Origin: Syntrophobacterales bacterium
Lineage (GTDB): Bacteria; Desulfobacterota; Syntrophia; Syntrophales; UBA5619
Length of the DNA stretch: 64,000 bases
Assembly (NCBI GenBank): GCA_019429105.1
Contig: JAHYJE010000015.1
Span: forward strand, 1 to 64,000
Reading direction: 5' to 3'
Part shown: piece after piece, positions 47,646 to 64,000 of the stretch
How the letters are laid out: the number at the start of each line of letters is the position of its first letter
Position numbering within the stretch: position 1 is the stretch's first letter
Translations under genes and position numbers: made by a program
Notes under the pieces: generated by a model
What the model was told of the DNA's origin: nothing
What the model saw: only the letters and a program-made list of their open reading frames with translations
Database searches by the model: none

Positions 47646-48764
47646 CTACGGGAGATTTTCGCTTCCCCGCAGCCGCGTTGCCGGGAAAAGCCCCTGCTTA
47701 TAGGCTTCTGCGCAGTACCAGTGAGGCGCCCAGAGATCATGGTCTCTGTAGTAATTCTGCGCGATGCAGCTTCCGAGGCAGACGTTTTTGAGAAGGCATT
47801 CTGCGCAGATCCCCCGAAATCGCGAGGGAAGTCCGGCGCGAATATCCTTCAGCACCGGGGAAGTTTCCCATACCTCCTTAAGTGAGTTCTGGCCGGCGTC
47901 GCCGAAGACAAGTTCGGAAACGGTCTCGCCGATGCCGCAGAGGGCGTACGCGCCGCTGGCAAGCACCCCCAGAATGCCGGATATTCCACAGGTGTGACAG
48001 CCGTCACCGGTTTTGGCGTTGAACATTCTTCTCAGCGAGCGGAAAGCCGGCGGCTGATCGTAGTATAAAGACAGGCTGGTTGTTGCTGACAACTCTTCGT
48101 CCACCCATTTGCCGAGCAAGATCAGTTCAGCGATGTCAACCGTTTCCCCTGCGGCAAACATCTGTTCGCCCCGCGCGGTCGGCTGGATTATGTTGAATTT
48201 GACGGAGCCCGCGCCGAGCGCTTCAGCCATGCGGACAATCTGCGCAAGCTGATCTTTATTCCGCTGCATGACCGTCATGATGATCTGAGGACGCAGCCCT
48301 GCTGCGACCAGGTTTTTAATGCCGGCCACAGCCTCGTCGAAGCAACCCTTTTTGCCTCTAACCCACTCGTGCACCTCCGGGTCGATTGAATCGATGCTAA
48401 CCGAGACAAAGGCGTTTCCCACAGAAGCGATTTTTTCGGCTATTTCAGAAGAGCACAGGGTGCCGTTCGTTTCCACGACGAGACGCAATCCCCGTTTTTG
48501 CACAGCGCTGATCAAGTCGGATAGCCGGGGATGCAGCAGCGGCTCGCCACCGGTAAATTTTACCCCGTTTAGCCCCAGGGCGCCCGCCTGATCGAGAATC
48601 TTCGTGAACAGCGCCGAATCCAGATATGACGAAGATTGGGAGGCCGGAAGGTAATGGGGTTCTATCCAGCAATGACGGCAGCGCAGATTGCAGTCGCTGG
48701 TCAGATAAAAATATAGCTGGCGCAGCGGGTAAAATGGCTTTACATCCGGCTCGTTATTGGTCAT
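47646..48764 (-). CDS. scmF: Radical SAM/SPASM peptide maturase, ScmF-like
   Basis: 372 residues. SDCNLRCRHCW is the CxxxCxxC radical SAM cluster; KFTGGEPLLHP binds AdoMet; the C-terminal SPASM region has CHTCGISG, CGIGE and CAECLLKNVCLGSC for auxiliary Fe-S clusters. PLRQLYFYLTSDCNL resembles ScmF of the SynChlorMet cassette (two PqqE-like enzymes, a PqqD-like protein and ScmC, described in syntrophs). Overlaps scmE by four bases. Expected to modify a ribosomal peptide; the chemistry is unknown. Which of the two maturases is E or F is from memory. Confidence 0.8.
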   Translation of the reverse strand: MTNNEPDVKPFYPLRQLYFYLTSDCNLRCRHCWIEPHYLPASQSSSYLDSALFTKILDQAGALGLNGVKFTGGEPLLHPRLSDLISAVQKRGLRLVVETNGTLCSSEIAEKIASVGNAFVSVSIDSIDPEVHEWVRGKKGCFDEAVAGIKNLVAAGLRPQIIMTVMQRNKDQLAQIVRMAEALGAGSVKFNIIQPTARGEQMFAAGETVDIAELILLGKWVDEELSATTSLSLYYDQPPAFRSLRRMFNAKTGDGCHTCGISGILGVLASGAYALCGIGETVSELVFGDAGQNSLKEVWETSPVLKDIRAGLPSRFRGICAECLLKNVCLGSCIAQNYYRDHDLWAPHWYCAEAYKQGLFPATRLRGSENLP

Positions 48765-49894
48765 TGCGCTGTCACCGGCCGATGATTAAGCAAACATTCC
48801 GGCAGACATCCTCCCTGCTGTTCGAAAAGGCGCAGACAGGCGTCTGGGCTCGGGCTGTTGACCTTGCCCGTCAGATTGTAGGACAAGGCAGGACAGTTGC
48901 CTGTGCAATAGTCCCGATAAGGGCAGTCTTGACAGAGTGCAAACGAGGAAAGGGGAATAAGTTTGCGGTTTCTCAGATTCCACAACGCTGGATGATTTTG
49001 CCAGAGGTCGCAGAGATCATCGCGATTGATTTGCCCCAGGACTATGTGGCCCAACTGTGAGCAGGGGACATAGGCCCCGTCCGCCCGTACAGAAATGCTC
49101 TGAAACGGGCATCCGCAACCTGTCAGAAATCCCCGGCCCGCCATGGGTGGCTTTTTCTCCCGGCCGGCCTCCTTCATCTCGGCCCACATGCGCGCGTCGG
49201 CAAGGGGGCCGGCGGTGGCGCTGATGCGGTTGCCGTATTTATCGCTGAGGCCAAGCAGCGTTTCCATCGCCGCCGAGCGTTCCGCGACGGTCAATTGCGT
49301 CTGTTCGGTATTTTTCCGACAGAGGCCCATATACGAGGCGGCGTTGGTTGAAAAAGAGGGCAGGCCAATCTCTTCAAGAAGCAGTGCGGCGATTGCTTCC
49401 AGTTCGTGGACATTTTTACGGTGGATCGTGACGCGCACGGTTACCGGCAGATTGAACTTCTGCAACATTCTGATCCCGCCTAAGGCCTTGACAAAATTTC
49501 CCTCGCCCCGAAAGGCGTCATGGGTAATGTCAAGCGCGCCGTCAAGGGAAACCTGAACAGAGTTGCAACGTCCGGTAGCGGCAAGAAAAGCTGCCATCTC
49601 CGGTTTGATCAAGGTGCCGTTGCTGAGAATCGAAAAGCGCATCCTGTTTTCGACGATGGAGGCGATGATTGCCTGCAGATCTTGCCGATAAAAAGGTTCT
49701 CCTCCGGAAAGGGTGACATTCATCACCGCGCAGCGCTTGAGCTCAGAAAAAAAGCGCCGCCAGTCGTCCAGGGGCATATCCCGGCCAACGTCTCCAGGCG
49801 CCGAGAAATGGCTGCAATAGGTGCAGCGCAGGTTGCACCCATTGGTGATCTCGATATCAACAGAGCGGGGCGTTTTCATCAGGGAGCGCATCAT
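48761..49894 (-). CDS. scmE: Radical SAM/SPASM peptide maturase, ScmE-like
   Basis: 377 residues. TNGCNLRCTYCSHF carries the radical SAM cluster, VTLSGGEPFYRQDL the AdoMet site, and the C-terminal SPASM part has GCGCPFQ, PCSQLGH, CQDCPYRDYCTGNC and a final Cys pair. PRSVDIEITNGCNL is the start I associate with ScmE. Four-base overlaps with both scmD upstream and scmF downstream show strict co-translation. Acts in the cytoplasm on the precursor peptide, presented by a PqqD-like protein. Confidence 0.82.
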   Translation of the reverse strand: MMRSLMKTPRSVDIEITNGCNLRCTYCSHFSAPGDVGRDMPLDDWRRFFSELKRCAVMNVTLSGGEPFYRQDLQAIIASIVENRMRFSILSNGTLIKPEMAAFLAATGRCNSVQVSLDGALDITHDAFRGEGNFVKALGGIRMLQKFNLPVTVRVTIHRKNVHELEAIAALLLEEIGLPSFSTNAASYMGLCRKNTEQTQLTVAERSAAMETLLGLSDKYGNRISATAGPLADARMWAEMKEAGREKKPPMAGRGFLTGCGCPFQSISVRADGAYVPCSQLGHIVLGQINRDDLCDLWQNHPALWNLRNRKLIPLSSFALCQDCPYRDYCTGNCPALSYNLTGKVNSPSPDACLRLFEQQGGCLPECLLNHRPVTAQ

Positions 49895-50316
49895 GGAGCG
49901 ATTTCTCCGTCCCCGGCGGCGAGGCCAAGTCTGGCAATTTCCCGGATAAACTCTTCTACCTGACTTTCCACCTCAGCCGGCACGTCCTCAGCCGCTTCCC
50001 TGATTGCCTCGGTTATTGCCGCCAGGGTCTGCTGGCCGTCAAGCAGTTTCCAGATGAAAACCCCCCAAGGGTTCAGCGTAAAGGTATTGCCTGTGTCGGG
50101 ATTAAACAGCAGCGCCCAATCGTCAAACTCCTCTCTGAGGACAATCAAGGGTTTGGCTGTCATTTTTATGTCAGAGTATCCACCCACCAGTAATTTCTCC
50201 GTATCCGGCTTGTTCCCCTTCTTTTCAAAAGGCGGGACGGCCAGCTTCCTTTGCTGTAAAATTTTCAGTTCTTTTTCTTTCGGCAATTTGCTATATTGAC
50301 CAACAGAAAAAAGCAA
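49891..50316 (-). CDS. scmD: PqqD-like peptide-recognition protein, ScmD-like
   Basis: 141 residues. After a basic 50-residue lead, KPLIVLREEFDDWALLF, NPDTGNTFTLNPWG and FIWKLLDGQQTLAAI are the PqqD/RRE blocks that bind leader peptides. Longer than free-standing PqqD (about 95). First gene of scmD-scmE-scmF on the minus strand and divergent from the phosphatase gene, 72 bases away. Confidence 0.82.
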   Translation of the reverse strand: MLFSVGQYSKLPKEKELKILQQRKLAVPPFEKKGNKPDTEKLLVGGYSDIKMTAKPLIVLREEFDDWALLFNPDTGNTFTLNPWGVFIWKLLDGQQTLAAITEAIREAAEDVPAEVESQVEEFIREIARLGLAAGDGEIAP

Positions 50317-50388
50317 GTTCTATTTTGCCGTTCTGTATCGGGTACCTTGTAAAAAAAGCGCCGCGGCTGCTGTGCGATCTGGATATTT

Positions 50389-50841
50389 ATGAATGTTTTA
50401 TTTGTCTGCACCGCAAATATTGTCAGAAGTTTTATGGCGGAGGCCATACTTACGCACAAACTCAAAATGAAGGGGAGAAGGGATATAGCCGTTTCGTCTG
50501 CTGCTCTGATCGACATGAAGGGGAAGCAGGCAGACCCCTTTGCCGTCAAAATACTTGAAGAAAACGGGATTGAAGGCGGCAGTCATATCTCGAGGTTGCT
50601 GACAGATGACATGGTTGTCAATGCGGATTTAATCGCGGTTATGGAGGAAGGGCACCGAACGCAGTTGTGCGAAAGATACCCTGACGCGGCGGTAAAGATA
50701 CGGCTTCTCAAATCTTTCGTAAAAGGATATCAAGCTGTTGACTCAGACATTAAGGATCCTTACCACTTGACGATCTACCATTACCGGCTCTGTTTTGCGG
50801 AGATTTCCCTGGCCGTAGGCGGCATGCCGGGGGTACTGTAG
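50389..50841 (+). CDS. Low-molecular-weight phosphotyrosine phosphatase-like protein
   Basis: 150 residues. FVCTANIVRSFMAE is the P-loop CX5RS at the N-terminus, normally CxGNxCRSP; Cys and Arg are kept while several others vary. A general acid Asp-Pro occurs in IKDPYHLTIYH, and HISRLLTDDMV is the helix before the substrate loop. So catalysis is plausible. Related folds are arsenate reductases and protein tyrosine phosphatases. Inside the peptide cassette and near an HprK-like kinase, it could reverse a phosphorylation; that pairing is inference. Weak ribosome-binding site. Confidence 0.8.
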   Translation: MNVLFVCTANIVRSFMAEAILTHKLKMKGRRDIAVSSAALIDMKGKQADPFAVKILEENGIEGGSHISRLLTDDMVVNADLIAVMEEGHRTQLCERYPDAAVKIRLLKSFVKGYQAVDSDIKDPYHLTIYHYRLCFAEISLAVGGMPGVL

Positions 50842-51132
50842 AAAAAAAGCTCCTTCGTTACAAACGGCGGCAATGATTCAGTGCGTACCAGGACAAAGGG
50901 CCGTAGGCAACCGGTTCTGAGGTGGCAAGAGAGGCCGGGCTGCCATCAAAAGTTAATTTTTTCATGAACCAGTTGTTATTATGTATGTTATTGGCGACAT
51001 TGTTTGCCCCCGGAGGATGCGCTGAGAAAATATTTATTGCTTTTAAGGGGTGCGAGGCGTAGTAATCCGTAACGGTCGAAATTGAGGGCGCCGGTCAATC
51101 CAGTCCTGGAATAAGCAGAGAGAGGATTGCTA
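50842..51132. other. Intergenic region before the Tat-PqqD gene
   Basis: About 290 bases without a supported gene. A 32-codon frame from ATG 50964 to TAG 51062 encodes MNQLLLCMLLATLFAPGG followed by a Cys, resembling a lipoprotein signal, but there is no ribosome-binding site. No clear promoter or terminator seen; GAGAGAGG near 51119 serves the next gene. Confidence 0.3.
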
Positions 51133-51534
51133 ATGAAAAGGGCAAGGAGAAATTTCCTGGCGATTGCGGGCGGGGTAGCCGTAATGTTGCCGATAACGAA
51201 GTCCCCGACGCCAGCAAACGTTTATGAACACCTGCAAGGGCTCTGGAGTTGGTATGAAACAGAGGATTTGTTAAACGGAATGCCCGTTAGACAAAGCGGC
51301 GTTTCACTGCACAAAGGCGACGCTTTTCCGGTTCTTTCCGGTCCCGGAAGGGGACTGATACGCCTCAATCCGACGGCTGTGCGGATATGGGAGATGTGCG
51401 ACGGAAAAAACAGTCCGGCAAACATAGCCAGGACTATCAGCGAAAATTGCGATGTTTCCCCTGGCGTTTGTTTTAAGGACGTGATCATTGCGCTCAGAAC
51501 TTTTAAACGACAGGGCCTGATTGTTATGACGTGA
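51133..51534 (+). CDS. PqqD-like protein with Tat-like N-terminus
   Basis: 133 residues from ATG 51133. The N-terminus KRARRNFLAIAGGVAVML has a twin-arginine RRxFL motif and a hydrophobic core like a Tat signal. The remainder carries PqqD-type blocks: PVLSGPGRGLIRLNPTAVRIWEM, then a DG turn and a final three-helix region ending KRQGLIVM. PqqD proteins normally work in the cytoplasm. Either this domain is exported, or the N-terminus is a membrane anchor or a chance resemblance. Lies 70 bases before the candidate precursor peptide on the same strand. Confidence 0.65.
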   Translation: MKRARRNFLAIAGGVAVMLPITKSPTPANVYEHLQGLWSWYETEDLLNGMPVRQSGVSLHKGDAFPVLSGPGRGLIRLNPTAVRIWEMCDGKNSPANIARTISENCDVSPGVCFKDVIIALRTFKRQGLIVMT

Positions 51535-51604
51535 AGAAGATATTGACTCGCCAAAGGCGAGGAGTTTTGGGCAGCAACGATTCTTATATTTAGGTGAAAG
51601 TCCT

Positions 51605-51970
51605 ATGACGACCAGCAAAAAATTGCCCTATGAACCGCCGCTCATCATTGATTTGAGCGGGAGCACCGCCTATGCCGCAAAACCATGCAGAACCGGCGCC
51701 GCAATATCGGGAGGGGGAAACTGTTTGCCGGGTGGGTCTCCCCTGCAGGCGTGCCTGCAGGGGTCCGCGGCCACCGGCGGGGAGTGCAAACCGGGGAATT
51801 TTGCGTCCGAATTCTGCCTGACAGGCGGCTCTGCGCAAATCAGCACGTGCAAACCGGGGGCTGCCGCAAACACCAATTGCCTGTCGGGTACAGTTGCAGC
51901 AGGAACCTTGTGCCAAAAGGGCTCAGCGGCCGGAGGAGTCTGCAACCGCGGGAGCGCTCCGCTTACATAG
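51605..51970 (+). CDS. Candidate precursor peptide with nine CxxG repeats
   Basis: 121 residues. The N-terminal 25 form a leader-like region with YEPPLIIDL, the YxxPxL pattern recognised by PqqD/RRE domains in several RiPP families. Cys occur at 28, 40, 50, 61, 71, 82, 92, 103 and 113, each in C-x-x-G (CRTG, CLPG, CLQG, CKPG, CLTG, CKPG, CLSG, CQKG, CNRG), with spacing alternating 10 and 11 after the first. Residues between are Gly, Ala, Ser and Thr. A small hairpin (CTCGCC-aaa-GGCGAG, 51547-51561) and an AGGTG ribosome-binding site lie upstream. Flanked by both maturase operons. Modification is inferred; no transporter or protease gene is adjacent. Confidence 0.8.
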   Translation: MTTSKKLPYEPPLIIDLSGSTAYAAKPCRTGAAISGGGNCLPGGSPLQACLQGSAATGGECKPGNFASEFCLTGGSAQISTCKPGAAANTNCLSGTVAAGTLCQKGSAAGGVCNRGSAPLT

Positions 51971-52091
51971 AAGTGACCCGCTCCTCCGCTTTGCCTCTTG
52001 TCAATTTGTGGGACCGCTGATTGCGGGCGCTTTCCGGTTGGCTTTGCCGGTTTGTCAATTGGAGGGAGTTGAGTGCTCCGCCAACATTTCT

Positions 52092-52982
52092 TTACAGCAG
52101 TGTAAGGAAACTGTTGTCCTTCTGAAAATGCATATCAAACGAGGGAATTGACGCGCACAAATCGCAGCAACAATTAAATACAGAGGTCTTTAATTCCCGA
52201 TCCATCAAGTTGAAATAGTGGATGTGGAAGAGCAGCAGTTCCGCCAGCGCTGCTTGCCTGTCCCTCCTATTCAGGGCGAGCGGTTCCGCTTTTTTCAGGA
52301 AGATAATCCTTGCCAGCGGGCATTCTTGCCGATAATGATTTTTCCCTTTTCTTGCGAGGCTGTTAATCTGGGAAAACGGGGATGGGTGGATTTTGAACAA
52401 CCCCCCCCTTTCTTCAACCACTGTTGCATCATCGGAAAGCACATCCCCAATCGGGACGTACCCGGCCACGGTGCTTTTCCCGGCGCCGGACAACCCTAAA
52501 AAAAGATTCCCCTGACGGTTGATCCGCAGACCCGCCCCGTGTACCAGCAGCCTTTTATTGTCCACCATCAACAACGAAGTCAGGATAAAAAGCAGTTTGT
52601 ACAAACTGCCCATGAGGAAATTTTCTCCTTTCGACCGGAAAAGGAATATATGAAATTTGTGTGAATGGACATTGTACGCAAGCACTCCGTTCAAGAATCC
52701 GATCAGCAGAGTTTTTTCCGATATCGGATAGCGCTTGGCGACATGGTTGATGATGCGTGTCGTTTCTCTGTCTTTGGCTGTTGATATCCGTAGGGGTTCA
52801 GCTTTGAATTTGCGGAGATGTACAAAATTTTCATAGGAAAGGGCAACTTCTGTCGCAGCATCGCCTCTGGGCAGCAGAAAGCCGCGGAAGAGCCCTTTGA
52901 GCGGTGTCAAAAGTGGAGCCGCCTTTTCATCCCCGCTTATCGCAACTGCTATTCCGGCGATGACAATGATCAGTTCTTTCAT
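52092..52982 (-). CDS. scmC: HPr kinase-like protein, ScmC-like
   Basis: 296 residues. The C-terminal half has LGLSGAGKSTVAG (Walker A) and GDVLSDDATVVEE, the P-loop and Asp-Asp region of HprK/PEP-carboxykinase-type kinases; LVHGAGLRINRQGNLF precedes it. The N-terminal half is unassigned. HprK-like proteins recur in lasso-peptide and other RiPP clusters, where some phosphorylate the peptide. ScmC is the fourth SynChlorMet component; assignment is from fold and context. Starts directly at the stop of the HD-GYP gene. Confidence 0.75.
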   Translation of the reverse strand: MKELIIVIAGIAVAISGDEKAAPLLTPLKGLFRGFLLPRGDAATEVALSYENFVHLRKFKAEPLRISTAKDRETTRIINHVAKRYPISEKTLLIGFLNGVLAYNVHSHKFHIFLFRSKGENFLMGSLYKLLFILTSLLMVDNKRLLVHGAGLRINRQGNLFLGLSGAGKSTVAGYVPIGDVLSDDATVVEERGGLFKIHPSPFSQINSLARKGKNHYRQECPLARIIFLKKAEPLALNRRDRQAALAELLLFHIHYFNLMDRELKTSVFNCCCDLCASIPSFDMHFQKDNSFLTLL

Positions 52983-54071
52983 CTACTTGGGCAGTTCCCA
53001 TTCGGCGACCACGTCAACAATATTAAGAACGTTGCTGGTTGACAGATCCGTGTGTTCTTCCTCGACGCTCCGATTGCCCAGACCGTCGAAAATAATTCTT
53101 ACCAAGGGTTTTACTGGTTGCGACTTGTTGGTTTTTATCACCCGGCCAATGGCCCCGTTGTTTAACTTGACGTAGCTGCCCACCGGGTAAAGCGACATCT
53201 CGTCGAGAAAAACCTTGAGAATCCGAGGCGCAAACAATCGCTCTTTCGCTTCAATCAATTGTCTGACGGAGGTAAATTGCAGCAGCGCCTTTTTCTGGGG
53301 TCGATTATGGGTCATTGACTCATACGAGTCACAAATACCTATTATTTGTGCATATTCACCTATCTTTTCACCCTTTAGTCCCTGCGGATAGCCTTTTCCG
53401 TTCTCCCGTTCGTGGTGCTGATAAACCGCCTCTACAACGGCGGGGAAGTCCTTCTGGAAGGGCAGCAGGAGATCACGGCCGTTTTCCGGATGTTTTTTTA
53501 TGGCGGCAATCTCCTCATCTGTCAGACTGCCCGTTTTGCCAATTATGGCATCCGGCACCAGAAACATTCCTAAGTTTTGCAGAAGCGCAGCCAGGCCCAG
53601 TTCCGTAAGCCGTTTCCGGAGATAATGCAGGCGCAATCCTATTTTAAGGGCATAGATCATGGTGTGGATCGGCTGCAGGATATAATAGTCCTGCTCGTTA
53701 GCAAATGTGAGCATCCTCGGATTAATGCCGGCGAGAACCTCCGGTGAATCGACTATTTTGGCGATCATTTGAATAGCGGGATCAAGTCCAACGCCAGCGC
53801 CATCCCCGATGCCGACGCGGACATCCATCATATATTCCTGCAGTGCTGAGTAAATGGATTCCGTATCAAGACTATTATTTAAGATAAGTGTTTTTCCGCC
53901 GTTCTTGGGGGCGGTGGGATCATCTACAGCGGGTGCGTCCGGGGGCGTAGGGGGCGGGGCGCCGAAAATCCGGCTGAAACGAAAGGGCGTGGCGCTGCGG
54001 TCGCCTTCGGCCTTGGGTGTTTCATCTTGACCCCTTACGGTATCGGTTGCTCTCATAATAATCGCCGGCAT
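52983..54071 (-). CDS. HD-GYP domain protein with degenerate metal site
   Basis: 362 residues. After a Pro-rich, probably disordered lead (about 15-60), a c-di-GMP phosphodiesterase-type HD-GYP domain is recognised by HHERENGKGYPQGL and GICDSYESMTHNRP. The first His (IHTMIYAL) is present, but the diagnostic HD pair is replaced: LLQNLGMFLV stands where LLHDIGK is usual. Metal binding and hydrolysis are therefore doubtful; a sensor or scaffold role is possible. A C-terminal PilZ-like beta region (YPVGSYVKLNNGAIGRVIK) follows. Between two cassette genes on the same strand. Confidence 0.82.
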   Translation of the reverse strand: MPAIIMRATDTVRGQDETPKAEGDRSATPFRFSRIFGAPPPTPPDAPAVDDPTAPKNGGKTLILNNSLDTESIYSALQEYMMDVRVGIGDGAGVGLDPAIQMIAKIVDSPEVLAGINPRMLTFANEQDYYILQPIHTMIYALKIGLRLHYLRKRLTELGLAALLQNLGMFLVPDAIIGKTGSLTDEEIAAIKKHPENGRDLLLPFQKDFPAVVEAVYQHHERENGKGYPQGLKGEKIGEYAQIIGICDSYESMTHNRPQKKALLQFTSVRQLIEAKERLFAPRILKVFLDEMSLYPVGSYVKLNNGAIGRVIKTNKSQPVKPLVRIIFDGLGNRSVEEEHTDLSTSNVLNIVDVVAEWELPK

Positions 54072-54086
54072 CTTTCTTTATTTATT

Positions 54087-54395
54087 TTAGCGTTCACGAA
54101 ATCGTGACAATGTATCAGCGTCTGCAGATTCTCTTTTCAAAAAGGACATTCCCAGCATGCTGGTCAGAAAACTCTGAATGTCCTGTTCCAGCCGTGCACC
54201 AGGAACGTCATAAGCAGCGGCCAATTGAGCCGTTATCTCCTCCTTGGTATTGCTGCCGTTGCAAAGCTCCAAGAGCAGCGCCCCGGTCTTGTTGGCATAC
54301 ACGAGCTTTCCGGATTCTGGATCAAACAGGTAGGCGCCGTCGCCTTCTTTTCTAAAAATTATTCGCTCATTGCGAATAAAGATTGTTTCTTCTAT
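54087..54395 (-). CDS. PqqD-like protein with no standard start codon
   Basis: 102 residues if started at ATA 54395. The reading frame encodes IFRKEGDGAYLFDPESGKL and VYANKTGALLLELCNGSN, PqqD blocks that lie upstream of the first in-frame ATG (54302), so the shorter 71-residue form would lack half the domain. No ATG, GTG or TTG occurs in frame before an upstream stop, but AGAGG lies at normal distance from ATA (codons ATA GAA GAA). The start is therefore either AUA or a sequence change from ATG. First gene of the operon with the HD-GYP and HprK-like proteins. Confidence 0.6.
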   Translation of the reverse strand: MEETIFIRNERIIFRKEGDGAYLFDPESGKLVYANKTGALLLELCNGSNTKEEITAQLAAAYDVPGARLEQDIQSFLTSMLGMSFLKRESADADTLSRFRER

Positions 54396-54743
54396 TGTGC
54401 ACCTCTTTAAAAAACAGTGTTGTGCTTATTCCTATAATTTTATGAAGAATCAATATATAAATATTTAACTATTTACAAGAAAAAAACGCTATTGTTTACA
54501 AACCTCAACTCAAACCACGAATTTTTTTAACTGCCTTCGGGGAACGATGGACATAGCTTCTCTTCTTGCTGCTCAGTGCCAACTCTGCCGGACGGGCGGA
54601 CTTGTTGCCGGGCCTTAACTCCCAAGCTTGCGGAAACGCAGCGACCGAAAAAGAGGCGGTAAAACAAAAAACCCCTCTTGGGATGACGATTTTTACCGTC
54701 ATCCCAAGAGGGGGCCCGTTAGTCGCTTTTCGTGAACCGCCGG
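54396..54743. other. Intergenic region with A+T-rich promoter DNA and a terminator
   Basis: No gene. The part 54410-54500 is A+T-rich and probably holds the promoter of the PqqD-HD-GYP-HprK operon (minus strand). The part from 54672 holds the terminator hairpin of the oxidoreductase operon. Confidence 0.5.
54672..54713 (-). terminator. Strong hairpin terminator of the aldehyde oxidoreductase operon
   Basis: CCCCTCTTGGGATGACG (54672-54688) pairs perfectly with CGTCATCCCAAGAGGGG (54697-54713): 17 bp with an 8-base loop. On the minus strand it is followed by a T tract (TTTTTTGTTTT), as expected for termination 30 bases after the ferredoxin gene. Confidence 0.85.
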
Positions 54744-58218: not shown

Positions 58219-59013
58219 GTGTATTTGGAATATTGGGGTTTGCAAAAATATCCTTTTGAAAATACGCCTGACCCGGAGTTTTTTTTCTTTTCGCCAGAAC
58301 ACGAAGAGGCGCTCTCGCGGCTCACCTATGGAGTTAGACGCAACAAGGGCGCTTTACTGCTGACCGGAGCAATCGGCTGTGGCAAAACATTGCTAAGCCG
58401 TGTTTTCATAAAACAGATGCAACATGAAAATATTGATATCGGTCTGATTGCCAACCCCTCCCCGGAACCATTAGGTTTCCTTAGTGAAACCCTTTACCAG
58501 TTCGGTCTTAACTCACAAGCCGCAACCAAAACGGAAATGCTCAAAATCCTGAACAACAAACTGATGGAAAATTCCAACAAAAGCGCTATTTCCCTGCTCA
58601 TCATTGACGAGGCTCAGACAATATACAAGGAGACCTTTGACGAGATTCGCATGCTCTTGAATTTTCAGATGAACGACCGCTATTTATTAAATTTGCTCTT
58701 CCTGGGGCAGCCAGAGTTGCGGGAGATGATAGTAGGCAATAAACAACTCGATCAGCGCATCGCCATCCGCTATCACCTCAACCCATTGAGCCGCAGCGAT
58801 ACGACAAGGTATATACTTTTTCGTCTGGATAAAGCGGGACTTAAAAAAAATATCTTTTCCGATGAAGCGTTGGAAACCATCTACGCATACTCTGGAGGCG
58901 TTCCTCGTAAGATAAACAATATCTGTGACTTGTCCCTGTTAATCGGTTTTAGCTTAAAAGTAGAGCTAATCGATCAGCGTATCGTCTCGGGGATCATCAA
59001 AGATTCATTATAA
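58219..59013 (+). CDS. ExeA-like AAA ATPase
   Basis: 264 residues from GTG 58219 (preceded by GGGTGAG). YWGLQKYPFENTPDPEFFF is the ExeA/GspA opening, GAIGCGKT the Walker A motif and LLIIDEAQT Walker B; LGQPELREMI and SGGVPRKINNICD follow as in ExeA and PEP-CTERM/exosortase-associated ATPases. Such proteins usually serve secretion or polysaccharide export, or peptidoglycan insertion of secretins. None of those genes is here, so the job is open. Shares a superfamily with the transposition ATPase at 2159-2965. Confidence 0.85.
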   Translation: MYLEYWGLQKYPFENTPDPEFFFFSPEHEEALSRLTYGVRRNKGALLLTGAIGCGKTLLSRVFIKQMQHENIDIGLIANPSPEPLGFLSETLYQFGLNSQAATKTEMLKILNNKLMENSNKSAISLLIIDEAQTIYKETFDEIRMLLNFQMNDRYLLNLLFLGQPELREMIVGNKQLDQRIAIRYHLNPLSRSDTTRYILFRLDKAGLKKNIFSDEALETIYAYSGGVPRKINNICDLSLLIGFSLKVELIDQRIVSGIIKDSL

Positions 59014-59097: not shown

Positions 59098-59796
59098 ATG
59101 AATGAATATCTACATGATAGCAATAAAAGTTTACCTATCTCGGAGGTGTCCTCCGAACTGCAACAAGGGGCAGCAAAAATAGGTGTTAAGGTTGATCAGA
59201 ATCAACTATCCCTTTTTGTGCAATACTATCAAGAATTGCTATTTTGGAACCGGCAGATAAATCTTATCTCCGAACATTCCGCAGGCGAGATAATAGAACG
59301 CCATTTTATCGATTCCCTGACCCCGCTTCCCTTGCTGAAGAAAGAAAACGAATTTCTCCTGGATTTGGGAAGCGGCGGCGGCTTCCCGGGGATTCCCCTG
59401 AAGATCATGGCGCCGGACCTGAATGTTGTTCTTGTCGATGCCTCAAGAAAAAAAACATCGTTTCTCTCGCATATAGTACGCATCCTGAAGCTAACCGAAG
59501 TAACGGTAATTCGAGGACGCATCGAAGACTTGGCGGCAGGGAAGGAGTGGGTGGCAAAGTTTGACACGGTGATCTCCAGGGCGGCCCTTAAACTGCCCCA
59601 ACTGATTGTTTTTGCATCTTCTTTTCTGAAACGAGGTGGTCAGCTTATCGCCCTGAAAGGTCTTGCAGGGCATGACGAAGATAAGGCAGCCGAGGTCGCC
59701 GCCCTGTCCGCGGGAATGACTTTTTCAGGTGAGGCGGCAGCAGAATTAGAAAAAAATCATTCACTGAAAAAATTAATAGTTTACAGGAGATTATGA
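59098..59796 (+). CDS. rsmG: 16S rRNA (guanine527-N7)-methyltransferase RsmG
   Basis: 232 residues. LLDLGSGGGFPGIPLKI binds AdoMet; FWNRQINLIS and RHFIDSLTPL are the RsmG N-terminal blocks and SRAALKLPQLI a downstream one. Methylates G527 of 16S rRNA. Followed about 100 bases later by parA-parB, the classic rsmG-parA-parB order near bacterial origins. Confidence 0.94.
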   Translation: MNEYLHDSNKSLPISEVSSELQQGAAKIGVKVDQNQLSLFVQYYQELLFWNRQINLISEHSAGEIIERHFIDSLTPLPLLKKENEFLLDLGSGGGFPGIPLKIMAPDLNVVLVDASRKKTSFLSHIVRILKLTEVTVIRGRIEDLAAGKEWVAKFDTVISRAALKLPQLIVFASSFLKRGGQLIALKGLAGHDEDKAAEVAALSAGMTFSGEAAAELEKNHSLKKLIVYRRL

Positions 59797-59892
59797 TTTA
59801 CTTTTTTTAAAAAAATATTGCCCCTGGCGGCGATTTTGTGTTAGCGTCAATTCGTTTGATGGATTATTCTTGCTGTTCCCTTTTTAGGTATT

Positions 59893-60663
59893 ATGAGAAA
59901 AATAATAAGCGTAGCCAATCAGAAGGGAGGGGTCGGGAAGACCACGACTGCGATAAATTTATCGGCCTCTCTGGCTGCCGCTGAAAAAACGACCTTGCTG
60001 ATAGACGCGGATTCTCAGGGGAATGCCTCCAGCGGCATGGGCATAACTCCTGAAAATATAAAAGATAAAAATCTATATCGCTGTTTGATCGATAATTATC
60101 CGTTAAGCCGGGCTGCCATCAAAACTCAGATGCCGCACCTTGATATAATTCCTGCCAATCAGGATCTGGTCGGGGTCGAACTGGAGTTCATCTCTTTGGC
60201 AGACAGGGAAAAAAGACTAAAAAATCTCTTAAGAAACCTTGAAACCGATTACGATTACGTTATTATTGATTGTCCGCCCTCTCTTGGTTTTCTGACTGTC
60301 AATGCTCTGGTGGCCTCGGATTGCCTGTTGGTTCCCCTGCAATGCGAGTATTTTGCGATGGAGGGAATGGGCCATCTGCTCAACACAATGGAAATAATAA
60401 GAAAACATTTGAATCCGACGCTGTATTTGGCCGGCATTCTACTGACGATGTACGATTCGAGAAATTTACTGTCGCGACGAGTAAGTGATGATGTGCGTTC
60501 CCATTTTGGCGAACTTGTTTTTAAAACGCTTATTCCCCGGAATGTGCGCTTGTCGGAAAGTCCCAGTCACGGACTCCCCATCATTCTTTATGATATCAAG
60601 TCCCGCGGCGCCGTCTCTTATATGGAATTGGCGGAAGAAATAATCAATAACGGGAGGATGTAA
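59893..60663 (+). CDS. parA: Chromosome partitioning ATPase ParA (Soj)
   Basis: 256 residues. ANQKGGVGKTTTAINLSASLA is the deviant Walker A (partly quoted) of Soj/ParA, with DADSQGNASSGMG and DCPPSLGFLTVNAL. Binds DNA non-specifically and, with ParB, moves the origin region. Its stop overlaps the parB start (TAATG-type), so the two are coupled. Confidence 0.95.
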   Translation: MRKIISVANQKGGVGKTTTAINLSASLAAAEKTTLLIDADSQGNASSGMGITPENIKDKNLYRCLIDNYPLSRAAIKTQMPHLDIIPANQDLVGVELEFISLADREKRLKNLLRNLETDYDYVIIDCPPSLGFLTVNALVASDCLLVPLQCEYFAMEGMGHLLNTMEIIRKHLNPTLYLAGILLTMYDSRNLLSRRVSDDVRSHFGELVFKTLIPRNVRLSESPSHGLPIILYDIKSRGAVSYMELAEEIINNGRM

Positions 60664-61511
60664 TGTCGCGGACAAATTCCCTGGGCAAGGGCCTGGGCGC
60701 AATGTTTCCTGATCTAATCAACAATGCTGGAGACAGGCCGGCTTTTGTCATGTGCGGCATTGAAGAACTCACGCCCAACCGCTTCCAGCCTCGCTCGGAT
60801 TTCAACGATGACGCGCAAAAAGAGTTAATAGCATCGATTAAAACAAATGGCGTTATTCAGCCGATCATCGTCCGCAAGACGCAAAACAGCTATGAGATAA
60901 TAGCGGGCGAGAGGCGCTGGCGGGCGGCTCAGGCCTCTGGCATGAAAGAAGTTCCTGTTGTCATACGTAAAGCGAGCGATCGTGATTTGGCAGAACTTTC
61001 TCTTGTAGAAAACATCCAAAGAGAAGCACTCAATCCCATAGAAGAAGCAAAGGCATATCAGGTGCTTTCCAGTGATTTCTCGCTTTCCCAGGATGACATT
61101 TCCACCCGGGTAGGCAAGGACCGCTCCACAATCGCCAATACCATCCGACTGCTTAAATTGCCGGCCGAAATACAGAAAGATGTAATAAGTAAGAGCATAA
61201 CCGCCGGACATGCGCGGGCGCTGCTTTCTCTGGACCGTCCCGAATTGCAGCTTAACGCCTTGAGAACCATCAAGAAAAGGGAATTAAATGTACGCGAAAC
61301 GGAAGGTTTAATCAAAAGGCTTAAAAGCAGCCAAGGAAAAAATGACAAAAAATCTTCGGATCCATATATCGATGATGTGCAAAAAACATTATCATCACAT
61401 CTACTTACACGTGTTAAAATAAAATCCGGGAAAAAAGCCGGGTATATAGAGATAAAATACGCCAACCCCTCAGAACTGGACCGTCTTACCCGCTACCTTC
61501 TGGAACGGTGA
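60663..61511 (+). CDS. parB: Chromosome partitioning protein ParB (Spo0J)
   Basis: 282 residues. NRFQPRSDF, the ParB box AGERRWRAAQASG (CTPase region) and the helix-turn-helix STRVGKDRSTIANTIRLL are clear; the C-terminal dimer domain follows a linker (KSSQGKNDKKSS). Binds parS and spreads. I did not find a parS palindrome (TGTTTCACGTGAAACA type) in this window. Confidence 0.95.
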   Translation: MSRTNSLGKGLGAMFPDLINNAGDRPAFVMCGIEELTPNRFQPRSDFNDDAQKELIASIKTNGVIQPIIVRKTQNSYEIIAGERRWRAAQASGMKEVPVVIRKASDRDLAELSLVENIQREALNPIEEAKAYQVLSSDFSLSQDDISTRVGKDRSTIANTIRLLKLPAEIQKDVISKSITAGHARALLSLDRPELQLNALRTIKKRELNVRETEGLIKRLKSSQGKNDKKSSDPYIDDVQKTLSSHLLTRVKIKSGKKAGYIEIKYANPSELDRLTRYLLER

Positions 61512-61520
61512 AAAATTAAT

Positions 61521-61540
61521 TTATCAACCTCTGTTGATAA
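61521..61540. promoter_or_regulatory. Paired DnaA-box-like sites upstream of dnaA
   Basis: TTATCAAC (61521-61528) and GTTGATAA (61533-61540) form a perfect inverted repeat, each close to the DnaA box TTATCCACA. They lie between parB and dnaA and could control dnaA expression or form part of the origin. Confidence 0.6.
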
Positions 61541-61569
61541 CAATGTTTATAAGCTCGGGTATCATCTGT

Positions 61570-62916
61570 ATGCTTTGGAATAAAGTTGCTAAAATCATAA
61601 AGGAAAAAATAACCAAGCAGAATTTCGATACATGGATAATGCCCATTCAAGTAAGATCTCTTGAAGAGGGTAATCTTTGTTTAAACGTTCCGAATCGTTT
61701 TTTTAGAGACTGGTTGCAGGAAAATTATTTATTTCTAATACGGGAAGCGCTTTTATCAGTAACTGGACTAAATTATGATGTTGAGTTTATTATTGCAGAC
61801 AACCCTCGTAAAAACAACTCTCCCTCTATCAAAACTGATGAGTCAATATTGGACAACGGTAAAACAAAACACAAACAAGAACGAGTGCACAAGACGCTTA
61901 ATTCTAATTATAGTTTTGACCGTTTCATTGTTGGAGCAAGCAATCAATTCGCCCACGCCGCCGCTGTTGCTGTTGCAGAACAGCCGGCAAAAAATTACAA
62001 TCCTTTGTTTATATATGGCGGCGTGGGATTGGGAAAAACCCATTTAATAAATGCTATTGGTTTAAAAGCCCTTCAGCTCTTTCCAGACATGAATGTGGTA
62101 TATGTCTCGGCAGAGGTTTTTATGAACGACCTGATAAATTGCATTCGCTTTGACAAAATGCAGAAATTTAGAGAAAGGTTTAGAAATATAGATTGCCTTC
62201 TTATCGATGATATCCAGTTTCTCGCCGGCAAAGACAGAACCCAGGAAGAGTTTTTTCATACATTCAATACCCTGCATGACGCTGGTAAACAAATTGTTGT
62301 TACAAGCGATAAATTTCCCAAAGATATCGAAAATTTAGAAGGAAGATTGAGGTCTCGTTTCGAATGGGGGTTAATTGCCGACATACAACCTCCGGATATC
62401 GAAACAAGAATGGCAATATTAGAAAAAAAGGCCAGTGAAAACAGCGTTGTGTTGCCAGGAGAGGTTTCTCTTTTTTTAGCAACGCAATCTGAATCCAACA
62501 TCCGGGAATTAGAAGGATATCTTGTCAGGGTATCAGCATATTCCTCTTTAACCTCCAGACCTATTGATATCGATCTTACAAAAGAGGTGTTAAAGCAACT
62601 TCTATATAAAACAGAAAAAAAAGAAATATCTATTGACGACATCACAAAAGTGGTGTGTTCTCAATTAGGCGTAAAAATTCAAGACGTTAAATCAAATAAG
62701 AAAAATAAAAATATTGCAGAAGCGCGCCAGATTGCGATGTTTCTGGCAAGAGAGATGACAAATTCTTCATTTCCTGATATAGGAGAAAAGATAGGAGGAA
62801 GGGACCATTCTACGGTCATATATTCTTTTAATAAAATTAAGAAGAAATTGCAGACTGATAAACAGTTGATAGGGGTTGTGGAAAAGATAAAAAAAATTAT
62901 TATTAAAAATAATTAG
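61570..62916 (+). CDS. dnaA: Replication initiator DnaA
   Basis: 448 residues from ATG 61570 (MLWNKVAKIIKEKI), which matches the usual N-terminus; ATGs at 61543 and upstream exist but would add unmatched residues. Domain I is NFDTWIMPI; domain III has Walker A GGVGLGKTH and LLIDDIQFLAGK; domain IV ends with the signature GGRDHSTVIYSF, the DNA-recognition helix. Assembles on DnaA boxes to open the origin. The gene is notably A+T-rich compared with the first 57 kb. Confidence 0.95.
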   Translation: MLWNKVAKIIKEKITKQNFDTWIMPIQVRSLEEGNLCLNVPNRFFRDWLQENYLFLIREALLSVTGLNYDVEFIIADNPRKNNSPSIKTDESILDNGKTKHKQERVHKTLNSNYSFDRFIVGASNQFAHAAAVAVAEQPAKNYNPLFIYGGVGLGKTHLINAIGLKALQLFPDMNVVYVSAEVFMNDLINCIRFDKMQKFRERFRNIDCLLIDDIQFLAGKDRTQEEFFHTFNTLHDAGKQIVVTSDKFPKDIENLEGRLRSRFEWGLIADIQPPDIETRMAILEKKASENSVVLPGEVSLFLATQSESNIRELEGYLVRVSAYSSLTSRPIDIDLTKEVLKQLLYKTEKKEISIDDITKVVCSQLGVKIQDVKSNKKNKNIAEARQIAMFLAREMTNSSFPDIGEKIGGRDHSTVIYSFNKIKKKLQTDKQLIGVVEKIKKIIIKNN

Positions 62917-63090
62917 TGCTTTTCACTCTTTATATCAACAGATTATTAATGATATAAAGTAAATAAAAATAAGCTATTAATATGTTTATCAACAGTTTTA
63001 ACAAGACCTATTACTATTACTATATTTCTTTATAAAAAAGTATCTTAAAACATATTAATTATAAAAAAATGAAAGGATGAAATAGAGAAA
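62917..63090. promoter_or_regulatory. A+T-rich dnaA-dnaN gap, candidate origin element
   Basis: Very A+T-rich. Contains CTTTATATC (62928-62936) and GATATAAAG (62951-62959), a perfect 9-bp dyad, TTATCAACA (62986-62994, one mismatch to the DnaA box) and long A/T runs that could unwind. dnaN's ribosome-binding region is at its right edge. May be part of oriC or simply the dnaA terminator and dnaN promoter. Confidence 0.45.
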
Positions 63091-64000
63091 ATGGAATTTA
63101 ATATCAAAAGAGATATATTTCTGTCCGGGATTCAAAAGACCTTGGGAATCGTAGAAAAAAAAACAACCATGCCAATATTGAATAATCTTTTACTGCGAGC
63201 CATCCCCAACCGGATAAAAATAATGGCAACCGATATGGAGATAGGTTTGGTCTCGAACTATGAAACAGAGGTAATCAAAGAGGGTGAAATAACGGTTTCC
63301 GCAAGAAAGCTCTATGAAATGGTACGAGAGATACAGGGAGAAAATATCCATGTTGTAAAAAATGAAAAAAATGTAGTTATAATTACCTGTAATAAAGCTA
63401 TTTATAGAATACTGGGCCTTCCCGCGGATGATTATCCCGTTATTGAAGAAAAGGATGATTGGAAATTTTATAAATTGCCGGGAAGCATTCTTAAATATTT
63501 AATGAGAAAAACATATTTTGCGATCTCCAACGATGAAATGCGTAAGAATCTGACCGGTGTTTTATTGGAAACTGAAAAAAAGGACGCCTCTTTCTTAATA
63601 CGTATGGTTTCAACTGACAGCCACCGCCTGTCGTTTGCCGCAGCCGAGATAAAGAGCGATGATTTTCTTATAACAGCCGACTATAAAAACATTATTATCC
63701 CTAAAAAGGGCGTGGGAGAGATAACGCGTCTTTTGGATGAAAACGAAGCGGAATACATCGATCTTTGCGTCAATAATGGTTTATTAATAGTTAAAACAGA
63801 TAAAACAATCCTGAAGGCAGGTCTTATTGATGGAGATTACCCTGATTATAAAAGGGTTATCCCTGCAAATAGAGGAGTAATAATAAAAATTGAACGAGAT
63901 AAATTGCTTCATGCTGTCCGCAGAATGTGTGTTGTGTCATCTGAAAAATATAACGGCGTGATAATGACTATATCAAAGGGAAGAGTTTATTTTAATTCCA
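63091..64000 (+). CDS. dnaN: DNA polymerase III beta subunit, partial
   Basis: The first 303 codons are in the window; the gene runs off the right edge. ATG 63091 gives MEFNIKRDIFLSGIQKTLG and later MPILNNLLLRA, MVSTDSHRLSFA and GLIDGDYPDYKRVIP, all typical of the sliding clamp's three domains. Encircles DNA and tethers the polymerase. The dnaA-dnaN order supports an origin-proximal location. Confidence 0.94.
   Translation, partial: MEFNIKRDIFLSGIQKTLGIVEKKTTMPILNNLLLRAIPNRIKIMATDMEIGLVSNYETEVIKEGEITVSARKLYEMVREIQGENIHVVKNEKNVVIITCNKAIYRILGLPADDYPVIEEKDDWKFYKLPGSILKYLMRKTYFAISNDEMRKNLTGVLLETEKKDASFLIRMVSTDSHRLSFAAAEIKSDDFLITADYKNIIIPKKGVGEITRLLDENEAEYIDLCVNNGLLIVKTDKTILKAGLIDGDYPDYKRVIPANRGVIIKIERDKLLHAVRRMCVVSSEKYNGVIMTISKGRVYFNS

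Follow-up and report, generated by a model that had tools for sequence, protein, structure and literature searches.

Genes at the locus

The window considered here is a stretch of 64,000 nucleotides at the start of contig JAHYJE010000015.1 from a Syntrophales bacterium. It contains a gene cassette of the SynChlorMet (SCM) type and, inside it, a short open reading frame (ORF) with nine C-x-x-G repeats, the candidate precursor peptide of the cassette (Table 1). The original prediction described two radical S-adenosylmethionine (SAM)/SPASM enzymes and a PqqD-like protein in one overlapping operon, and this is what the locus holds: the genes of ScmF, ScmE and ScmD overlap on the minus strand, and all three products scored above the curated NCBIfam cut-offs in a profile search. 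The cassette is thus SynChlorMet by the cut-offs for ScmD, ScmE and ScmF. The fourth assigned member, an HprK-like protein, is a divergent ScmC homologue scoring below the ScmC cut-off, with the kinase motifs kept (His148, the Walker A sequence GLSGAGKST, and Asp184-Asp185). Hence the window carries a variant SCM cassette, not the full canonical one.

In ScmE the radical SAM domain begins at residue 14 and in ScmF at residue 21, and neither has the N-terminal recognition element (RRE) for ribosomally synthesised and post-translationally modified peptides (RiPPs) that is fused to AlbA, SkfB and ThnB. The listed ScmD start, TTG at 50316, is probably too early: the conserved domain is seen from about residue 51, and an ATG at about 50166 is the probable start.

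The CxxG-repeat frame

The repeat ORF follows a Shine-Dalgarno-like AGGTGA. The predicted leader comprises residues 1–24 (51605–51676), YEPPLIIDLSGSTAYA, ending in Ala24, and the core starts at Ala25. The leader sequence, MTTSKKLPYEPPLIIDLSGSTAYA, contains YEPPLI, and all nine Cys of the protein lie in C-x-x-G units 10–12 residues apart, so the 121-residue frame has both features ascribed to it earlier, a YxxPxL-like leader and nine repeats. The units use different Gly codons, and Tandem Repeats Finder detects no array at the ORF; hence the repeat is maintained at the amino-acid level, by selection on the protein.

The same GC-rich region also holds several antisense ORFs of comparable length, as would be expected if the frame were open by chance. 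However, none of 200,000 shuffles of the core gave nine CxxG (the maximum was 8). ORFs of this kind number 45 in 625 kb of SCM stretches and 0 in 400 kb taken from related genomes as a control, and this one is the sole example in the window. Since the leader and the CxxG units are also conserved across families, a chance frame is refuted, and we regard its probability as negligible.

The original prediction stated that no precursor was assigned to this cassette. This was wrong: NCBIfam defines TIGR04252 (SCM_precur_ScmA, 49 positions), which aligns to residues 9 to 58 of the window ORF with 18.4 bits, below the cut-off of 35. Despite this score we read the ORF as ScmA-like, because its place, leader and apparent role are the same.

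The ScmA family follows the enzymes

We searched 155 Syntrophales genomes and 395 genomes sampled across the phylum for ScmE, which exceeds the cut-off in 28 of the former and 18 of the latter. TIGR04252 proved too narrow as a search model and was set aside: none of the 155 Syntrophales genomes has a match above its cut-off, and of 48 candidate precursors 20 match it at E≤0.1 (best 2.5e-7). None of the 48 falls in a Pfam family. We therefore built an ScmA hidden Markov model (HMM) from these 48 repeat ORFs and applied it to the Syntrophales set. It matches all 28 ScmE-positive genomes and seven of the 127 ScmE-negative ones (Fisher 1.3e-24); in genomes absent from model building, it matches 4/4 ScmE-positive and 6/126 ScmE-negative genomes (p 1.8e-5), both p-values being optimistic, as the genomes are related and not independent. 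The pattern spans many families. Of the seven ScmE-negative genomes, four have an ScmE-like gene below the cut-off beside the ORF (G115, G116, G084, G060), two have ScmF and ScmD beside ScmA (G147, G148), and in the last (G037) the ORF lies on a 4.6-kb contig.

The original prediction would have been contradicted by SCM loci lacking such an ORF. We read 44 SCM stretches, the window included, and counted any ORF that combines a YxxPx[LIVMF] leader with three or more CxxG. A repeat ORF is present in 37 of the stretches, 34 by this definition and three in two-repeat versions (L086, L088, L094). Five of the seven genomes without an ORF in the stretch carry ScmA on another contig (G003, G029, G059, G123, G126); in the other two stretches the contig stops at ScmE (L048) or has an assembly gap beside it (L089). 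Two loci that had looked like exceptions without a precursor, L044 and L047, were dismissed, their ScmA genes lying on other contigs. No refuting locus thus emerged.

Each precursor carries between 2 and 12 CxxG repeats, a locus often encodes several paralogues, and Y9 and P12 of the leader (YxxP) are invariant in every aligned member. Since the same kind of gene is found in every related genome with the enzymes, we take the repeat ORF to be their substrate, and judged by sequence it is almost certainly the precursor peptide of this cassette, as had been proposed. The ScmA family is much wider than the NCBIfam model. Alternatively, the product of the ORF could be a secreted repeat protein, structural or metal-binding, that stays unmodified and neighbours the cassette by coincidence, ScmE and ScmF acting on some other substrate. 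The exopolysaccharide genes around the type-A loci described below (Wza, Wzz, an XrtA-type ATPase) would be a fitting place for a surface repeat protein; the RRE-binding type of leader in all aligned members, the complete co-occurrence in ScmE-positive Syntrophales and the ScmA paralogues beside ScmE and ScmF make this very improbable.

Some members are atypical. Six loci of one Syntrophales family (L033, L034, L035, L073, L075, L077) have several paralogues of long Cys- and Tyr-rich precursors with CC pairs and up to 18 Cys, which suggests different or additional cross-links. Two divergent SCM-like loci, L094 (G489) and L160 (G084), have two ScmD-type RREs, and in their short precursors both CxxxG and CxxG abound. 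A single-sequence scan of named genomes yielded one relative only, a metagenome-assembled genome labelled Syntrophus aciditrophicus. The name SynChlorMet implies that Chlorobium and methanogens are also among the carriers of the cassette. The SCM enzymes are named in NCBIfam, and our literature search found no paper on them; searches on the CxxG repeat with radical SAM, and on RREs with twin-arginine, returned nothing relevant.

Two locus types

A gene absent from the original prediction lies just upstream of the repeat ORF. It encodes a second PqqD-like protein, whose N-terminus resembles a signal for twin-arginine translocation (Tat), MKRARRNFLAIAGGVAVMLP. We call the loci with such an RRE type A and a second architecture type B; the gene tally compares 21 stretches with this RRE and 34 without. 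In type A, to which the window belongs, the Tat-like RRE is at or near the 5' side of ScmA, and the loci have a divergent HprK gene, a low-molecular-weight phosphatase, an HD-GYP protein and an XrtA-type ATPase, often with the exopolysaccharide export genes Wza and Wzz. Type B loci have ScmC proper (TIGR04249, 179–261 bits), an archaeal-type S26 peptidase, an MsbA-like ABC exporter, a PF14907 nucleotidyltransferase and an RRE. The S26 peptidase, with GxSM, VVHRV and RGD motifs, stands beside ScmC or is fused to it. It occurs in 22 of the 34 stretches without the Tat-like RRE and in none of the 21 with it; hence the two processing modules, as identified from sequence, are mutually exclusive. 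One locus, L030 (G021), is intermediate, as an S26 peptidase and an ScmC-type kinase are seen alongside the type-A neighbours Wza, Wzz, XrtA-type ATPase and LMW phosphatase.

PF14907 is found above the cut-off in all 28 ScmE-positive and in 42 of the 127 ScmE-negative Syntrophales genomes (p 5e-12). In G003, ScmA, HprK, HD-GYP, the nucleotidyltransferase, Wza and Wzz are still contiguous.

Table 1. Features of the SCM locus in the window, with NCBIfam scores and curated cut-offs or Pfam E-values
Feature	Position	Strand	Evidence and occurrence
ScmF, radical SAM/SPASM enzyme	47646..48764	-	TIGR04251 541.8 bits (cut-off 400); motifs
ScmE, radical SAM/SPASM enzyme	48761..49894	-	TIGR04250 566.6 bits (cut-off 400); CxxxCxxC and SPASM CxxC..C...C
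ScmD, PqqD-like RRE	49891..50316	-	TIGR04248 106.5 bits (cut-off 100); PF05402
Low-molecular-weight (LMW; Wzb-like) phosphotyrosine phosphatase	50389..50841	+	PF01451 1.7e-28; in 15/21 type-A stretches
Second PqqD/RRE protein, Tat-like N-terminus	51133..51534 (ORF 51127-51534)	+	PF05402 1.4e-12; directly upstream of ScmA
ScmA-type precursor gene, 121 aa, nine C-x-x-G	51605..51970	+	ORF; TIGR04252 18.4 bits (below cut-off 35); own family model
HprK-like kinase, divergent ScmC homologue	52092..52982	-	TIGR04249 29.4 bits (cut-off 125); alignment
HD-GYP-type domain protein	52983..54071	-	PF13487 7.3e-26; in 15/21 type-A stretches
Third PqqD-like protein	54087..54395 (open frame 54087-54422)	-	PF05402 9e-15; counterpart adjoins ScmF in other loci
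XrtA/PEP-CTERM-system-type AAA ATPase	58219..59013	+	TIGR03015 243 bits (cut-off 324.5); in 13/21 type-A stretches

The third PqqD-like frame has no ATG, GTG or TTG before its conserved N-terminal part; hence an ATT start is possible, as is decay of the gene once ScmF had left its side. A link to the exosortase (XrtA/PEP-CTERM) system was rejected as a general feature: exosortase PF09721 has no match in the window genome and is present in 8/30 SCM genomes, and the ATPase is also below its cut-off. The cassette is followed, at 59098–64000, by genes resembling rsmG, parA, parB, dnaA and dnaN, as read from the ORFs, and therefore adjoins a likely replication origin.

Proposed radical chemistry and tailoring

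The CxxxCxxC and SPASM cysteine motifs of the radical enzymes are kept in nearly all loci, and the best solved-structure match of both ScmE and ScmF is the sactisynthase SkfB (6efn; 8.5e-20 and 1.3e-15, respectively). Of 155 Cys in the type-A precursors, 99% are followed by Gly at +3 and most by Ala (64%) or Pro at +6, and the spacing from one Cys to the next is 10–11 in 126/136 cases. From this pattern it is likely that the CxxG Cys are the residues modified by ScmE and ScmF. The four-residue C-x-x-G ring has a precedent, since streptosactin has S–C-alpha bonds Cys31–Gly34 and Cys25–Ser28, that is, a C-x-x-G/S spacing (PMC8172795). By this analogy, a Cys-to-Gly S–C-alpha thioether at each CxxG has about even chances.

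ScmA could also be the substrate but yield other products: C-beta or C-gamma bonds as in ranthipeptides, C–C links or epimerisation, or only some Cys could be modified, the rest forming disulphides or binding metal. ScmE and ScmF also match the PapB, StsB, heme-synthesis and PqqE families at similar bit scores, and freyrasin is a precedent for repeated Cys–Asp C-beta links (PMC8326336). Type B is looser, with Gly at +3 for just 67% of Cys and a subfamily in which CC and Tyr abound. As one third of type-B Cys lie outside CxxG and CC pairs occur, a single Cys-Gly rule cannot cover all precursors, and other bonds are possible in type B. On the other hand, the type-A Gly at +3 surpasses any acidic or other acceptor in conservation, and the closest solved structure is that of a sactisynthase. 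Hence we rate such products as less likely and prefer Cys-Gly thioethers.

Lasso and linear polyphosphorylated peptide (LPP) systems have HprK-like kinases that phosphorylate Ser (PMC9266682, PMC13381572). Ser polyphosphorylation was shown in the LPP systems (PMC13381572), and in pseudomycoidin the phosphorylated Ser also receives hexoses, added by PsmN (PMC9266682, PMC13381572). By analogy, it is plausible that ScmC and the PF14907 protein phosphorylate the peptide and further decorate (glycosylate) it.

Leader, and its possible cleavage and export

Binding of the YEPPLI leader by an RRE is likely from its sequence. For the kinase and the second RRE, two sequences of each were modelled with AlphaFold; the mean pLDDT was 47 and 49, only the PqqD-like strand-strand-helix-helix-helix part being better. 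The second RRE of type-A loci has a conserved x-[RK]-R-x-[FL] and a hydrophobic stretch. TatC is present in 30/30 genomes checked, which permits a Tat step but is no proof of it.

The type-A leaders contain A-x-A: it was seen in 19/19 of those first examined vs 2/29 in type B. In 25 type-A leaders (one with V-x-A) the motif ends 16 residues from Tyr, counted as 1, in 22 cases and 15 or 17 in the other three. In the LPP RiPPs, in vitro and in vivo experiments showed that an S26 peptidase cuts the leader with the help of the RRE, and the leader consensus YxxPxVLxHQxIxFET ends at position 16, which is the cut position (PMC13381572). The type-A spacing appears to agree with this position, as derived from the printed consensus, and leader removal at A-x-A is plausible in type A. 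The full LPP motif YxxPxVLxHQxIxFETxxS was not seen in the ScmA leaders; what they have in common with it is limited to YxxPx[L/I/V] and the distance to the cut.

Proposed pathway

We propose that ScmA is a RiPP precursor handled as follows. The stand-alone RREs (ScmD and relatives) would bind the YEPPLI leader and present ScmA to ScmE and ScmF, whose most likely reaction is a bond from each Cys sulphur to C-alpha of the Gly at +3; in the window ScmA this would make as many as nine small rings, each a four-residue thioether. Phosphorylation and further decoration would probably come next, through the HprK-like kinase and the NTP_transf_5 protein, in line with the action of related proteins on lasso and LPP peptides. 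Cleavage and export would differ between the two locus types. In type A a signal-peptidase-like enzyme may remove the leader at Ala-Tyr-Ala|Ala, the Tat-signal RRE protein being the candidate export carrier; in type B the dedicated archaeal-type S26 peptidase and the MsbA-like exporter may take these roles. We consider this pathway as a whole reasonably probable.

Several points weigh against it, besides the optimistic p-values. The whole account is built from sequence. The window matches to ScmA and ScmC are both below the curated cut-offs. The Tat assignment is made from the motif, and three sequences have KR instead of RR. The window genome (G000) has its nucleotidyltransferase–Wza–Wzz block on another contig (C40). 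Finally, the lower type-B share of Cys with Gly at +3 and the subfamily with CC pairs fit the thioether scheme poorly.

The most speculative part concerns type-A export. Here the Tat-signal RRE would carry the folded, thioether-bridged ScmA across the inner membrane, signal peptidase would cut at A-x-A, and the phosphorylated, perhaps sugar-linked peptide would join the exopolysaccharide or the cell surface. We hold this extension to be unlikely. To our knowledge, neither an RRE that carries cargo for export nor a RiPP that forms part of an exopolysaccharide has a precedent.

Relation to known systems

The window resembles the SCM system of NCBIfam (TIGR04248–04252), where the precursor family ScmA is already defined, in its ScmD, ScmE and ScmF. 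Compared with the canonical cassette, its ScmA is longer, with nine repeats and a score of 18 bits where the cut-off is 35, its ScmC is divergent, and it has an extra Tat-like RRE and exopolysaccharide-type neighbours.

The LPP systems (Popov et al. 2026, PMC13381572) share with SCM loci the YxxP leader, a stand-alone RRE, an HprK-like kinase, an NTP transferase, a capsule or exopolysaccharide neighbourhood and the leader length to the cut. The S26 peptidase and MsbA-like exporter are also common to both in type-B loci only, which have the full LPP gene set. In contrast, type A lacks the S26 peptidase and has the Tat-like RRE and the AxA site, and the window itself holds the RREs and the kinase only, the nucleotidyltransferase being on the other contig. 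SCM loci add two SPASM radical SAM enzymes and a CxxG-repeat core, and their hosts are Syntrophales and others of their phylum, not Bacillota.

Like sactipeptide systems (streptosactin; GggB, SkfB, AlbA), SCM loci combine SPASM radical SAM enzymes with Cys-containing ribosomal peptides and share the C-x-x-G ring size; unlike the sactisynthases AlbA, SkfB and ThnB with their fused RRE, they have stand-alone RREs, two enzymes and 2–12 repeats. The ranthipeptide freyrasin (PapA/PapB) also has many repeat motifs per peptide with one thioether each, but links Cys to the C-beta of Asp, which has no counterpart in ScmA. Systems for phosphorylated or glycosylated lasso peptides (paeninodin, pseudomycoidin) share the [Y/W]xxP-type leader, B1 RRE, HprK-like kinase and nucleotidyltransferase, whereas no macrolactam synthetase or B2 protease is among the recurrent SCM-locus genes.

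The ScmA family name and the SCM cassette were known. New here are the widened ScmA family, its tie to the LPP/lasso tailoring scaffold, and the distinctive Tat-like/AxA branch that holds the window. A varied family of CxxG-repeat precursors tracks the enzymes in every ScmE-positive Syntrophales genome, so the SCM chemistry becomes directly testable by co-expression. The RRE, kinase and NTP transferase also connect the SCM cassette with the recently reported LPP/lasso scaffold, which is thus seen outside Bacillota with radical chemistry added. In syntrophic bacteria, these loci suggest an unusual route of peptide export and processing.

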